A stretch of DNA of 64,000 nt from Clostridiales bacterium (GTDB lineage Bacteria; Bacillota; Clostridia; Christensenellales; Aristaeellaceae), in the NCBI GenBank assembly GCA_024695415.1, contig JAILIE010000065.1:1-64000 (forward strand), written 5' to 3'. Numbering within the stretch: the stretch's first letter is position 1; each line of letters starts with the position of its first letter. Positions 44,257-51,131 of this stretch are shown piece after piece. The notes beneath the pieces were generated by a model. The model searched no databases and was not told the DNA's origin. It was given only the letters and a program-made list of their open reading frames with translations. Position numbers and translations under genes: made by a program.

Positions 44257-44775
44257 ATGAGAGAGATCACGCTCGCCCCGTTTACGGAGGAGCAGTACCA
44301 CGTCTTTTTCCGCGGGTACCGGCAGGATCCGCTGATGACGCCGGATCCGTTCGTCTACAGCGAGGAACAGGTGTCCATGTCCTACCGGTGGAACTACGGC
44401 GGTTTCCAGCAGCATTACGCGCATTACGGGATTTTCCTGGACGGGGTGCCGGTGGGATCCTTCCAGCTCAAACGCATCGATCCGGAAACGAAAACCTGCG
44501 AGTTCGGCATCATCCTGCAGCATGACGGATACAAGGACCGGGGCATCGGAACAGAGGCGATCCGCCGGGGCATGCGGCTGGCCGCCGATGAGTTCGGCGT
44601 GGAGACGGTGATCGGCGATACGGCGGGCCGGAATAAACGGATGCAGCGTGTATTTGAAAAGCTCGGATTTGAAATGACGGAGACGATTCCGGACGCGTTT
44701 GAGCTTCCGGACGGAACGAAAGACAGCTGCCTCATCTGGCGGAAAACCCTGAAGGAAACGGAGGAAACGAAATGA
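44257..44775 (+). CDS. GNAT family N-acetyltransferase
   Basis: EFGIILQHDGYKDRGIGTEAIRRGMRLAADEFGVETVIGDTAGRNKRMQRVFEKLGF. Confidence 0.88.
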   Translation: MREITLAPFTEEQYHVFFRGYRQDPLMTPDPFVYSEEQVSMSYRWNYGGFQQHYAHYGIFLDGVPVGSFQLKRIDPETKTCEFGIILQHDGYKDRGIGTEAIRRGMRLAADEFGVETVIGDTAGRNKRMQRVFEKLGFEMTETIPDAFELPDGTKDSCLIWRKTLKETEETK

Positions 44776-45947
44776 GCGCGAAAGCCATCCTGGTCCCTGG
44801 ACGGGAAAAACGGGTATACAGCCGGCATCCCTGGATCTTCCGCAGCGATATCGATAAAACCGAGGGCGCTATCACCCCCGGCGACGTCGTGAGCGTGTAT
44901 TCCGCCAAGGGAAAATTCCTGGCGAAGGCTTTCTATAACCCGAACAGCCAGATCGCCCTGCGGGTCATGAGCTGGAAGGACGAGGAAATCGACCGGGCGC
45001 TGATCTTCCGCAGGGTTCACGAGGCGGTGGAATACCGCCGGAGCTTCGCGGACCTGAAAAGCTGCCGGCTGATCTTCGCGGAGAGCGACCGGCTGCCGGC
45101 CATGATCGCGGACGCCTTCGGGGACGTGATCGTGATCCAGTGCCTGGCCCTGGGCATGGAGCGGTTCAAGCAGGACGTGGTGGACGCCCTGGTGGAGGAA
45201 CTGCACCCCGCCGGGATCTGGGAACGGAACGATGTGCCGGTGCGGAAACTGGAAGGCATGGAAATGACCACCGGGCTCCTGTACGGCGAGGTGCCGGACC
45301 GGGTGGAAATGACCGAGAACGGCGTGCGCTTCCTGGTGGACGTGAAGGAAGGCCAGAAGACGGGTTTCTTCCTGGACCAGAAGGAAAACCGCGCGGCCAT
45401 CGCCCCGTTCGTGAAGGGTAAGCGGGTACTGGACTGCTTTACCCATACCGGTTCCTTTGCCCTGCACGCGGCGCATTACGGCGCGCGCGAGGTGACCGGC
45501 GTGGACATCAGCGAATACGCCTGTGAATTCGCTGCGGAGAACGCGCGGCTGAACGGCGTGGAGGACCGGGTCCGCTTCGTGACGGCCAACGCCTTCGACC
45601 TGCTTGCGGAGGAAAGCCGTGAGGGAAAGAAATATGACGTGATCATCCTGGATCCGCCCGCGTTTACGAAAACCCGTTCCGCGGTGGAGAGCGCGATCCG
45701 CGGATATAAAGAAATCAACCTCCGGGCCATGAAGATGGTCGAGCCCGGAGGGTATCTGGTCACCTGTTCCTGCAGCCAGCACGTGACGCCGGATCTGTTC
45801 AGAAAGATGGTCCTGGACGCCGCGTCGGACGCGAGGGTCCTGCTGCGCCAGGTGGAGTTCCGGACCCAGGGAAAGGATCATCCGATTCTTCCCTCTTCCC
45901 CGGAAACCGAGTACCTGAAGTGCGGAATCTACCAGGTCATAAAATAG
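44772..45947 (+). CDS. Class I SAM-dependent rRNA methyltransferase (RlmI-like, PUA domain)
   Basis: GREKRVYSRHPWIFRSDI PUA; VLDCFTHTGSFALHA; VIILDPPAFTK. Confidence 0.92.
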   Translation: MSAKAILVPGREKRVYSRHPWIFRSDIDKTEGAITPGDVVSVYSAKGKFLAKAFYNPNSQIALRVMSWKDEEIDRALIFRRVHEAVEYRRSFADLKSCRLIFAESDRLPAMIADAFGDVIVIQCLALGMERFKQDVVDALVEELHPAGIWERNDVPVRKLEGMEMTTGLLYGEVPDRVEMTENGVRFLVDVKEGQKTGFFLDQKENRAAIAPFVKGKRVLDCFTHTGSFALHAAHYGAREVTGVDISEYACEFAAENARLNGVEDRVRFVTANAFDLLAEESREGKKYDVIILDPPAFTKTRSAVESAIRGYKEINLRAMKMVEPGGYLVTCSCSQHVTPDLFRKMVLDAASDARVLLRQVEFRTQGKDHPILPSSPETEYLKCGIYQVIK

Positions 45948-45959
45948 ACTCCGGTCCGA

Positions 45960-46856
45960 TTAACGGTCCTCGTAGCCGAGGTTTTTCAGGTCCGCGGCGT
46001 TGTTGCGCCAGTCCGGGCGGATCTTGACCCACAGCTTCAGGTTGACGTGGGTATCCAGCAGGTTTTCGATATCTTCCCGCGCTTGGGAACCGATCGTCTG
46101 CAGCATGGCGCCGTGCTTTCCGATGATAATGCCCTTGTGCGCGTCGCGTTCGCAGTAGATCGTCGCGTTGATTTCCGTCAGGTCGTCCCGGACCTTTTCG
46201 ATTCCCAGGATTTCCACACCGATCCCGTGCGGCACCTCATCCCGGAGGTGCCGCAGCGCTTTTTCCCGGATGATTTCCGCGCAGAGGATCCGCTCCGGCT
46301 GGTCGGTCATCATGTCGTCCGGGAAATACTTCGGGCCTTCCGGAAGATGCTTCCGCAGATTATCCGTCAATTCGTCCAGGCCGCTGCCGGTCTTCGCGCT
46401 GACGGGAATGATTTCGTCAAAACCGAAGTCCGCGAAGCGGGCCGTGGCTTCCAGGACCGCTTCGGGACGCACGAGGTCGATCTTGTTCAGGGCCAGGATT
46501 TTCGGGACCTTTCCGGATGGAAGGCTTTCGGCGACGGAGATGTCCTTCGCCGTGACGTGGGATACGTCCGCCAGCATCAGGACACAGTCCATGCCGTCCA
46601 TCGCGCCGCGGACGGACTGCATCATATACTCTCCCAGCTTTGTCCGGGGCTGGTGGATGCCGGGGGTGTCCAGGAAGACCATCTGGTCGTTTTCATGCGT
46701 GATGACGCCCATAATCCGGCTCCGGGTCGTCTGCGGACGGCTGGAGACGATGGCGACCTTTTCGCCGATCATGGCGTTCATCAGCGAGGATTTCCCCACG
46801 TTGGGCAGGCCGACGATGGTGATAAAACCGGAATGGAATTTCGCTTTTTCAGTCAT
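45960..46856 (-). CDS. era: GTPase Era
   Basis: HSGFITIVGLPNVGKSSLMNAMIGEKVAIVSSRPQTTRSRIMGV; KH-domain C-terminus. Confidence 0.96.
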   Translation of the reverse strand: MTEKAKFHSGFITIVGLPNVGKSSLMNAMIGEKVAIVSSRPQTTRSRIMGVITHENDQMVFLDTPGIHQPRTKLGEYMMQSVRGAMDGMDCVLMLADVSHVTAKDISVAESLPSGKVPKILALNKIDLVRPEAVLEATARFADFGFDEIIPVSAKTGSGLDELTDNLRKHLPEGPKYFPDDMMTDQPERILCAEIIREKALRHLRDEVPHGIGVEILGIEKVRDDLTEINATIYCERDAHKGIIIGKHGAMLQTIGSQAREDIENLLDTHVNLKLWVKIRPDWRNNAADLKNLGYEDR

Positions 46857-47754
46857 GGGACGGTTCGGGCTCCTTTTCATTCAGTTCGATGCTGCCGGGC
46901 AGCAGGCGGGTCAGGCTGGACTCGATCACCTGGTCCTCCCAGGTCATCAGGATACGCAGGTCCGGCGCGAATTCCTGCAGGGCCTGGCGGCAGGCGCCGC
47001 AGGGCCAGGGCGTGGAATTGGCGGCGATGGCGATGTCGGTAAACGCCCGGGCCCCTTCGCTGACCGCCTTGAAGAGGGCGGTGCGCTCAGCGCAGTTCGT
47101 CAGGCCGAAGGAGATATTCTCCACGTTGCAGCCGGTAAAGATCCGGCCGTCCGCGGCGCGGAGCGCGGCGCCGACCGGGAAATGCGAATAGGGCGAGTAG
47201 CTGAACTTCATCGCTTCGCGGGCAGCGTCCAGCAGTTCCCTGTCCGCGCCGGACAGTTCCGGCCCGCGGACAGCGGAGACGGATGAAAGAATCTTTTCCT
47301 CCATGGCGCGCATAACGATCTGATCCTCCTTGCGAATATGGTCATAACCCATCAGGTGGCAGAGCCCGTGCACCAGCAGGTAGGCCGCTTCCCGGGAAGC
47401 GGAATGCCCGTATTCCTTCGCCTGGGTGTAAATATGCGGTACCGCGATGACGATATCGCCCAGGAAACAGGCGCCGAGCTCGTCATCAAATTCCCGGCGG
47501 AGCAGCGCCGGGCAGCTGCCCGCGGTTTTCCCGGCGGGCCAGGAGACCGCAGGAAAGGACAGCACGTCCGTGGAACGGCTGATTCCCCGGCACTGTTCGT
47601 TGATGACGGCGATGTCCTCATCCGAGCAGAGGCGCACGGAAACCGCGCACGGAAAACCGATCCCCTCGCAGGCCGGAGCGCTGTCGGCGGCGGCACGCAT
47701 CAGGGAAAGCATGTCCTCCGGGAGCGGCATATCGTTAATCCAGTCGATGACCAT
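46849..47754 (-). CDS. Fused rRNA maturation RNase YbeY - cytidine deaminase
   Basis: VHGLCHLMGYDH (YbeY) followed in the same frame by FSYSPYSHFPVGAAL...CAERTALFKAV...PCGACRQALQEF (Cdd). Confidence 0.9.
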   Translation of the reverse strand: MVIDWINDMPLPEDMLSLMRAAADSAPACEGIGFPCAVSVRLCSDEDIAVINEQCRGISRSTDVLSFPAVSWPAGKTAGSCPALLRREFDDELGACFLGDIVIAVPHIYTQAKEYGHSASREAAYLLVHGLCHLMGYDHIRKEDQIVMRAMEEKILSSVSAVRGPELSGADRELLDAAREAMKFSYSPYSHFPVGAALRAADGRIFTGCNVENISFGLTNCAERTALFKAVSEGARAFTDIAIAANSTPWPCGACRQALQEFAPDLRILMTWEDQVIESSLTRLLPGSIELNEKEPEPSHD

Positions 47755-47756
47755 GG

Positions 47757-50111
47757 TCAGTTCTCTTTCTCTCCGGCGCTGGCCGGGGTTTCCGCAGCGG
47801 GCGGGGCGGCAGGCGCGGCGTCCACCGGAGCCGCCGGTGCTTCAGCGGGGGCCTGGGTTTCAGGGGCAGGCGCGGCCGGAGCGGGCTCGGCAGGCGCCGG
47901 AGCGGTTTCCGGAATCGGCTGGCCGGCGTAATGGCGGACCTGCGGATACTCGATCCGCTCGTGATAGACGCCCTTCAGAATGCCGGAGAACGCCTCGCAG
48001 ATCTTGTCGATATCCCGCAGGGACAACGGGCTGTCGCTCAGCTGCCCGTCCTCCAGCTTGCCGCGGACGAGCTGTTCGATAAACTGGTCGATCGCCTTGG
48101 GCGTGGGGGTCTTCATGGAGCGGACCGCGGCCTCGATCGTATCGGCCAGCATGACGACCGCCGCCTCTTTTGTCTGCGGCTTCGGGCCGGCATATCGGAA
48201 CTCGTTGATATCCACGTGGCTGCCGTTGGAAAGCTGCAGGGCCTTGTGGTAGAAATACATGACCGGCGTGACGCCGTGGTGCTGCAGGATGATGTCCATG
48301 ACCTCCTGCGGCATGCGTTCCTTCTGGGCCAGCAGGACGCCGTCCATCGTATGGCTGGTGACGATGGCCGCGGAAACATAGGGATCCGTCCGCTCATGCG
48401 GGTTGTCCCCGTTCTGGTTTTCCTTGAAATAGCCGGGGCGCTTGAGCTTGCCGATATCGTGGTAATACGCGCCGGCGCGGGCCAGGTACGGGTTCGCGCC
48501 GATGCTGTCCGACGCCGCCTCGGCCAGGTTGGCGACGATGATCGAATGGTGATAGGTTCCGGGCGCCTCGATCATCAGGCGCTTCATCAGCGGCTGGTTC
48601 GGGTTGGTCAGCTCCAGCAGGCGGCTGGGGGTGGCCAGGCGGAAAATCGTCTCAAAGGCAGGCTGGAACGCGACGGCCAGCAGGCCGCTCAGGAATCCGC
48701 CGCCGATGGTCCAGGCGGAATATTCCACCAGGCGCACCGATTCAGCGGAGGTCAGCCATTTGACGGCCAGGAGCAGCAGGACGCCGGTGACGGCGGACAA
48801 AAGGCCGGCGATCAGGACGCGGATACGCTGGGGGCGGCCTTTCATGAACCACATGCAGACGATACCCTGCGCGAGGGACATCAGAGTGATCAGCGCCACG
48901 CCGTCAAAGCCGGACTTACTGTTGCCGGCAATCAGGAAGGCGTAGAGCAGCGTCAGCGTACAGGTGACGGAGATGCCGATCCGGTATCCGATCAGGATCG
49001 TTCCGAGGATCGATCCCAGCGCCACGGGGATAATAAACAGGCTGGGCAGGAAATGCGCGAGCGCCGCCAGCGCCATGCACAGGAGCAGGATCAGCAGCAC
49101 GACCGAGTACTGCCGGACATCCCGCAGGATATCGGGGCGCAGCATCTTCAGGCACATGGTCAGGATGACGATGGCAAGGATCACCGCCAGGGCGGAGCCG
49201 GAATACGAGGAGTAATCGTAGGTGCCGTCCTTCAGCAGGTTCAGGGACTGAAGGAGCTGGATCTGGGCATAGGTAATGGTGTCGCCCTCGGTGATGACTG
49301 GCTCTCCCTGGTGGATGACCAGGGGGTTGACCGACTCCATCGCCTCGTTCCGGGCAGCTTCCGTGTCCTCCTGGTTGATCAGCCAGTTAGGCTGGATGCA
49401 TTCCTTCAGGACGATCGGGAGGATGATGTTCCGAAGGTCCGCCTTGATTTCCGGATAGTAAGTGCCGAAGTCCTTCAGCATGCCGTCGATGAAGACGGTT
49501 TCCTGCTCCTGGAGGATTTTGACGTTGTCCCGGTCCATGTTCAGCTTGGTGGACAGGGCCAGGGACACGTTATCCACCATCTTGTCAAAATCGGAAGTGC
49601 TGGTGCGCATCAGGACGCGGATGCCCTCCCCGTCGATGGGCACCTGGTCCACCAGGTTAAAGGCGGCGTACTCGATCTGGTCCACGGAGAAGAGATCCCC
49701 GCGGGACTCCCCGCTCAGCCGGAGGCTTTCGCCGTACTGCTGTATGGCGCGGAGCTCGTCAAACGCCGACTCCAGGGAACTCATGACCTCCTGGGTCACG
49801 TTGCGGTACTTGTACTGGACTTCCACCTTGGCCGCGGCGGTTTCGCGGCGCTCCTGGGTGCGGACCTCGTCCACCACGTCGCGGGTCGCGACGATGGTTT
49901 CATGCGCCTCGGCGCCCTCCTTCAGGTCATACTTCTTGGGGGTGCAGACAAAAAAGAAGATCAGGAAGAGGAGGACCGCGGCGCCCACCGTCAGCAGAAA
50001 ACAGCGGCATGACGGGGAACGCGTCCAGGCGCGGAAACGGGCAAGAAGGGGGGTGGTTTCCTTCCCTTCCTTTTCCGGGGCCGCGCTGGTTTCCTTTGCT
50101 TCAGTCGTCAT
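47757..50111 (-). CDS. 7TMR-HD family phosphohydrolase (PgpH-type) with Pro/Ala-rich tail
   Basis: Extracellular 7TMR-HDED-like region, TM bundle, ARAGAYYHDIGKLKRPGYFKENQ HD motif. Confidence 0.92.
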   Translation of the reverse strand: MTTEAKETSAAPEKEGKETTPLLARFRAWTRSPSCRCFLLTVGAAVLLFLIFFFVCTPKKYDLKEGAEAHETIVATRDVVDEVRTQERRETAAAKVEVQYKYRNVTQEVMSSLESAFDELRAIQQYGESLRLSGESRGDLFSVDQIEYAAFNLVDQVPIDGEGIRVLMRTSTSDFDKMVDNVSLALSTKLNMDRDNVKILQEQETVFIDGMLKDFGTYYPEIKADLRNIILPIVLKECIQPNWLINQEDTEAARNEAMESVNPLVIHQGEPVITEGDTITYAQIQLLQSLNLLKDGTYDYSSYSGSALAVILAIVILTMCLKMLRPDILRDVRQYSVVLLILLLCMALAALAHFLPSLFIIPVALGSILGTILIGYRIGISVTCTLTLLYAFLIAGNSKSGFDGVALITLMSLAQGIVCMWFMKGRPQRIRVLIAGLLSAVTGVLLLLAVKWLTSAESVRLVEYSAWTIGGGFLSGLLAVAFQPAFETIFRLATPSRLLELTNPNQPLMKRLMIEAPGTYHHSIIVANLAEAASDSIGANPYLARAGAYYHDIGKLKRPGYFKENQNGDNPHERTDPYVSAAIVTSHTMDGVLLAQKERMPQEVMDIILQHHGVTPVMYFYHKALQLSNGSHVDINEFRYAGPKPQTKEAAVVMLADTIEAAVRSMKTPTPKAIDQFIEQLVRGKLEDGQLSDSPLSLRDIDKICEAFSGILKGVYHERIEYPQVRHYAGQPIPETAPAPAEPAPAAPAPETQAPAEAPAAPVDAAPAAPPAAETPASAGEKEN

Positions 50112-50162
50112 AACAATATCCTTTCCGGTACGAACCTGAGAATACATATACGGCGGAAACGG

Positions 50163-51131
50163 TTATTTCCCGGGATTTTTCCGGTTTTCATAGGCTTCCA
50201 CGATCCGCTGCACCAGTTCATGGCGGACGATGTCCCTTCCGGTCAGCTCGGCGATCCCGATGCCGGGGATATCGCGGAGCAGCTGGATGGCTTCCGCCAG
50301 GCCGGAGGTTTTTCCGGGGGGCAGGTCGGTCTGCGTGATGTCGCCGGTGACGATCACCTTGGAGCCGAAGCCCATGCGGGTCAGGAACATTTTCATCTGC
50401 TCGGAGGTGGTGTTCTGCGCCTCGTCCAGGATGATGAACGCGTCGGAAAGCGTCCGGCCGCGCATATAGGCCAGGGGGGCGACCTCCACGGTGCCGCGCT
50501 CGAGCAGGCGGGAGTAGGCGTCGGCACCCATGAAATCGTACATGGCGTCGTACAGGGGGCGGAGATAGGGGTCGACCTTCTGGGTCAGGTCGCCGGGCAG
50601 GAAACCGAGCTTCTCCCCGGCCTCGACCGCGGGGCGCGTCAGGATGATCCGCTCCGCATCCTTGTTCTTCAGCGCCATAACCGCCAGCGCCATGGCCAGG
50701 TAGGTCTTTCCGGTGCCCGCGGGGCCCACGGCGAAGGTCAGCATGTTCTTCCGGATGGAATCGACATACTTTTCCTGGCCGACGGTCTTGCAGGTGATCT
50801 GCTTTCCGCGGTGCGTCACGGCGATGACGCGGTTCATCGATTCATGGATCTGGTCCGTTTTCCCTTCCCGGACCATGGAGACGATATAGCGGATCCGCAG
50901 GCGGTCCACATGCTCGTTCCGGCGGATCATGTCAAAAAGCTCGAGAATCACCTGCTCCGCCAGGTCCAGCCGCTCGGGCTCCCCCTGGACCGTCAGCTGG
51001 TTGCCCCTCAGCGCGGCGGATACGCCGCATTCCTGCTCGATCAGGGTCATGTTCTGGTCGTTCAGGCCGAAGAGGGATACGTAGGCGTCCATATTGTCCG
51101 CGGAGAGGGTGATAACACGGGTGTAGGTCAA
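50163..51131 (-). CDS. PhoH family protein
   Basis: VGPAGTGKTYLAMALAVMALK; FIILDEAQNTTSEQMKMFLTRMGFGSKVIVTGDITQTDLP. Confidence 0.95.
   Translation of the reverse strand: MTYTRVITLSADNMDAYVSLFGLNDQNMTLIEQECGVSAALRGNQLTVQGEPERLDLAEQVILELFDMIRRNEHVDRLRIRYIVSMVREGKTDQIHESMNRVIAVTHRGKQITCKTVGQEKYVDSIRKNMLTFAVGPAGTGKTYLAMALAVMALKNKDAERIILTRPAVEAGEKLGFLPGDLTQKVDPYLRPLYDAMYDFMGADAYSRLLERGTVEVAPLAYMRGRTLSDAFIILDEAQNTTSEQMKMFLTRMGFGSKVIVTGDITQTDLPPGKTSGLAEAIQLLRDIPGIGIAELTGRDIVRHELVQRIVEAYENRKNPGK

Follow-up and report, generated by a model that had tools for sequence, protein, structure and literature searches.

A YbeY-cytidine deaminase fusion of several origins in the era operon of Aristaeellaceae and other Bacillota

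The 64,000-nucleotide stretch of a Clostridiales genome analysed here (the window) contains a gene on the reverse strand (46849..47754, -) that encodes YbeY and a cytidine deaminase (Cdd) in a single frame of 301 codons plus a stop. This join is real and old and has several origins, with about six independent appearances across the phylum, and both its fission and the loss of its Cdd domain are observed among relatives. We regard it as probable that the product is a bifunctional YbeY-Cdd protein, generated by loss of a stop codon between co-transcribed genes and composed of two independent modules.

Inspection of the open frame revealed zero internal stops, in agreement with a sequence-only reading of this DNA that had reported a single 301-residue frame. 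Residues 14-158 of the encoded protein match the Pfam YbeY domain (PF02130; 119 bits against a cut-off of 25), and the NCBIfam YbeY model TIGR00043 is likewise matched at 117 bits (cut-off 45). Residues 171-263 match Pfam dCMP_cyt_deam_1 (63 bits), and TIGR01354, the model for tetramer-type cytidine deaminases, scores above its cut-off (130.1 against 113.65 bits). The YbeY part (residues 1-163; 47266..47754, -) displays the usual C-terminal helix, at residues 142-158 in the AlphaFold2 model, and an ILxxxGxxR-type end (ILSxxGxxR in the family), whose arginine R163 is retained in 59 of 69 fusions. The zinc motif HGLCHLMGYDH previously claimed for it is found at residues 129-139 (47338..47370, -); across an alignment of 69 distinct fusions H129, H133 and H139 of the H-x3-H-x5-H signature are unvarying, as are G136, D138 and the conserved arginine R56. 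The Cdd part (residues 171-292; 46879..47244, -) is complete and stands where that reading had placed it, about 45 residues past the motif, with PYSHFPVG beginning at residue 188. Its CAE motif (residues 221-223; 47086..47094, -) supplies a zinc-binding cysteine and the catalytic glutamate, and its PCGAC motif (residues 251-255; 46990..47004, -) supplies two further zinc cysteines; C221, E223, P251, C252 and C255, along with N210 and E212 of the NxE substrate motif, are invariant in the same 69 fusions. The fold of this part matches the CDA of B. subtilis and other solved CDAs (TMt 0.83-0.91), and its identity to the closest of them is 43-50%; the solved relatives comprise the CDAs of B. subtilis, mouse and human and EfCDA, and the YbeY proteins of S. 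aureus, E. coli and Aquifex.

Between the two parts lies a linker of about seven residues in this protein (GPELSGA, residues 164-170; 47245..47265, -), which lacks any in-frame start codon accompanied by a Shine-Dalgarno site. The block spanning residues 161-170 is the least conserved across the 69 fusions and varies in length. AlphaFold2, run with 51 homologues, predicts two confident domains (mean pLDDT 94.2) and assigns this block a pLDDT of 73; because the pTM is 0.66 and the linker is weaker, the model does not fix the placement of the two domains relative to each other. Both domains are under purifying selection in close pairs, dN/dS being about 0.12 for YbeY and 0.03 for Cdd in one of them (L003/L032); these values were taken from close pairs only, as distant pairs are near saturation.

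The same stop-free frame recurs in other genomes, well over 150 of them, some assembled into one or two contigs, which excludes chance as well as sequencing or assembly error as its source; although the source genome is an 80% complete metagenome-assembled genome (MAG) of 143 contigs, the chance that an error deleted a stop codon here is vanishingly small. It is also very improbable that the fusion is nominal, with free Cdd made by internal initiation or the chain cut by a protease. Close to where Cdd begins, 16 of 71 fusions do retain an in-frame start with a Shine-Dalgarno-like site, compared with 30 of 38 adjacent genes, but the other 55 fusions, the present one included, lack such a site, and the shortness of the linker here also speaks against a nominal fusion. 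As the gene at 46849..47754 has no internal start with a Shine-Dalgarno site near the beginning of Cdd, its product is likely to be a single chain.

The gene belongs to the series phoH-pgpH-ybeY::cdd-era, all encoded on one strand (-). Upstream are phoH/ybeZ (50163..51131, -; Pfam PhoH, 319 bits) and pgpH, coding for a 7TMR-HD phosphodiesterase (47757..50147, -; Pfam 7TMR-HDED, 7TM-7TMR_HD and HD), the latter separated from the fusion by 2 nucleotides. The C-terminus of PgpH, directly ahead of ybeY (47757-47920, -), is a long low-complexity tail rich in alanine, proline and glutamate (PAPAEPAPAAPAPETQAPAEAPAAP...). Downstream, the GTPase Era is encoded by a separate frame (45960..46856, -; NF000908, 368 bits), and no Era domain is present on the YbeY-Cdd chain. 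The 8-nucleotide overlap proposed between the two genes (46849..46856, -; ATGACTGA) stands if era begins at the ATG at 46856, while the longest era frame begins at 46880; the start at 46856 is favored because in most cases the alignment with Era relatives sets in at about residue 9. With era the operon ends: recO is not found downstream, and the next gene (44772-45947, +), by eye an RlmI-like SAM methyltransferase, is convergent and lies 12 nucleotides away.

Elsewhere in the phylum ybeY-dgkA-cdd-era is the common order, consistent with the earlier statement that these are separate neighbors in many Firmicutes, and PMC6738653 gives it for S. aureus too. As that reading had noted, dgkA is absent from the locus; moreover, none was detected in the source genome (gut-type Clostridia, 80% complete MAG), which speaks against its relocation there, and of 100 genomes of the same family 91 lack it and nine have one. 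The few copies of DgkA in the family (L220-L222 and others) mostly occur in open frames of 340-470 residues, perhaps fused to another domain. Whereas dgkA separates ybeY from cdd in 18 of 20 loci with a wide gap, it does so in none of 91 fused loci, which bears out the proposal that the flanking genes merged after its departure.

A search for the same fusion across genomes, suggested in the sequence-only reading, recovered many cases in the family and few outside it. We drew 250 genomes of the same family, 233 of which had a match, and at least 170 of these 233 carry the fusion, the fused and unfused cases having been counted by hand from match tables. Nearly all of the approximately 150 best matches listed (of 233) span both domains in one open frame, and one has a stop. 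Re-examination of 66 weaker matches yielded about 24 fused cases and three in frame with one stop; in the remainder the genes overlap or abut, or the Cdd lies at another locus or is truncated where the contig ends. Few fusions were found beyond the family: of 231 further genomes of the order a single one has it (family f152), and of about 398 genomes in the phylum sample four do (f55, f62 and f127 twice). Among named genomes, MAGs of the Acidaminococcaceae and Peptococcaceae also carry it. A single stop separates ybeY and cdd, which otherwise share a frame, in families f47, f56, f150, f151 and f157, in a MAG of Phascolarctobacterium and in some genomes of the same family; relatives of the same order and family display either this state or overlapping genes, as intermediates. 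Such an in-frame pair is one mutation away from fusion. Among close relatives, L051 and L068 differ in that one is fused and the other has the genes overlapping in another frame, being either a recent fusion/fission pair or the result of a frameshift in one assembly.

Phylogenetic analysis shows the multiplicity of these origins. The fused/unfused label must change 15 times on a FastTree phylogeny of PhoH+PgpH+Era, and starred branches force at least 13 of these changes. On the YbeY+Cdd tree 13 changes are required, and placing all fusions in one clade is rejected (p-AU 7.6e-15), which rules out a single origin. The separateness of the lineages is exemplified by an Acidaminococcaceae fusion found beside an unfused Phascolarctobacterium relative.

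A census of 62 genomes from five genera, scoring TIGR01354 matches above the cut-off, returned exactly one Cdd in each (62/62), which in fused genomes is the fused domain. Because of this strict single occurrence, the fused domain is predicted to be the working cytidine deaminase of the cell. In the source genome the fusion, used as a query, recovered no further match; the other PF00383 matches there were considered as a second cytidine deaminase and set aside, since by eye two of them resemble TadA-type proteins and one a longer deaminase-acetyltransferase frame. A protein that looks secreted and contains a long (TPEP)n repeat is encoded beside a tadA-like gene in the same genome (L111, 1756-2586). 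Ten genomes from three clades (the genus of the window, g48 and g32) have a ybeY locus without Cdd and their single Cdd at another locus. Three of them, from the genus of the window, encode a YbeY lacking the Cdd domain (L183, L184 and L185, that is G236, G224 and G218), with replacement Cdd loci L200-L202. These replacement proteins are 42-46% identical to the fused Cdd and are encoded next to deoC in all three, next to tdk (thymidine kinase) as well in two, and near a gene for a PnrA-type nucleoside-binding protein in one. The deoC of fused genomes is just 41-54% identical to the deoC of the replacement cluster, which suggests that the cluster may have been gained as one block. The fused Cdd can thus be exchanged for a Cdd encoded in a nucleoside-salvage cluster without loss of YbeY.

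Fusion is also unevenly distributed over the junctions of the operon. In a set of loci picked partly for being fused, and hence not independent events, 72 of 129 ybeY|cdd junctions are fused, as against none of 132 for pgpH|ybeY (98% within 40 nucleotides of each other), none of 118 for cdd|era (87% within 40 nucleotides) and none of 12 for ybeY|era where cdd is absent. Separate origins differ by junction as well, with about six at ybeY|cdd and none at the others. This junction is thus special, which may reflect selection for linkage or a tolerance of the YbeY C-terminus and the Cdd N-terminus to joining that the other termini lack. YbeY-Era fusions are described from several Clostridia, Selenomonadales and Thermoleophilum in PMC10582724 and PMC6738653. 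Since YbeY also joins Era in other Clostridia and Selenomonadales (PMC10582724), its C-terminus is at least permissive for fusion.

In the explanation we favor, the departure of dgkA from the ybeY-dgkA-cdd-era operon would have brought ybeY and cdd into direct contact, and the ybeY stop codon would then have been lost in frame. The resulting chain, translated as one, would carry both activities. Its N-terminal module would be the YbeY endoribonuclease, with an expected role in maturation of the 16S rRNA 3' end, and its C-terminal module the sole cytidine deaminase, converting cytidine and deoxycytidine to the uridines and presumably forming the usual tetramer. The modules would fold separately and act independently across the short linker, with no exchange between the active sites needed. 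Against this explanation, recurrence of the fusion at ybeY|cdd alone and its retention over most of the family could mean selection for a YbeY-Cdd linkage rather than indifference.

Such a selected coupling might take the form of YbeY recruiting Cdd to the degradation machinery or to the small subunit during its maturation, or of a need for fixed 1:1 supply, thereby tying pyrimidine salvage to rRNA turnover. The independent fusions confined to one junction argue for it, as does the ancient association of ybeY/era with cdd, named as an open question in PMC10582724. However, fission and loss recur inside the family, the replacement Cdd in the genus of the window adjoins deoC/tdk and no ribosome genes, and Era did not interact with Cdd in S. 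aureus (PMC6738653); on balance we hold selected coupling to be unlikely. The related claim of the sequence-only reading, that the fusion links rRNA maturation and quality control with pyrimidine salvage, is not supported: in close relatives the two genes may be unfused, overlap or lie apart, YbeY has persisted where its Cdd domain was lost and replaced by a Cdd beside deoC/tdk, and the linker is the least conserved segment. It is also very unlikely that the Cdd tetramer acts as a scaffold for a tetravalent YbeY with altered activity or ribosome binding. A tetramer is to be expected from the fully conserved, tetramer-type Cdd part (TIGR01354), but sister species of the same genus have YbeY alone, so that a multimeric YbeY is not needed. 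Selection acting in one of these two ways, by YbeY tethering the sole Cdd to the nascent or decaying small subunit for on-site deamination of released cytidine or by the Cdd tetramer multimerizing YbeY, strikes us as quite unlikely; if true, it would account for the ancient ybeY/era-cdd synteny. Should the modules instead be independent, as in the stop-loss explanation, the protein would be a clean case of a long-kept, functionally unneeded enzyme fusion and a caution against inferring function from fusion alone. Because this lineage offers ybeY-cdd in fused, split and domain-lost form in nature, in part within a single genus, the question of the ybeY/era-cdd association becomes testable.

We found no description of a YbeY-Cdd fusion in the open-access literature. 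Protein databases label some proteins of this type as multifunctional fusions. Compared with stand-alone YbeY (TIGR00043; 7y7o of S. aureus, 1xm5 of E. coli, 1oz9 of Aquifex), the protein at 46849..47754 shares the fold, the zinc motif, the conserved arginine and the phoH-ybeY neighborhood, but differs by its C-terminal Cdd. With tetrameric CDAs (TIGR01354; 1jtk of B. subtilis, 8x6u of EfCDA) it shares the fold and the CAE and PCGAC zinc site; those are separate proteins, whereas here the Cdd N-terminus is joined to YbeY. PMC6738653 gives the S. aureus era operon as ybeZ-ybeY-dgkA-cdd-era-recO, and the order here is the same except for dgkA and recO: dgkA is lost, ybeY and cdd are merged, pgpH stands between phoH and ybeY, and era comes last. 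Neither Cdd-Era nor YbeY-Era fusions occur in the sampled loci. The YbeY-Era fusions known elsewhere are alike in that an N-terminal YbeY is followed on the chain by a protein encoded further downstream in its operon; their partner is Era, whereas here it is the metabolic enzyme Cdd and Era remains separate. The C-terminus of YbeY is thus a recurrent place of fusion for neighboring genes, with Cdd here and Era elsewhere.
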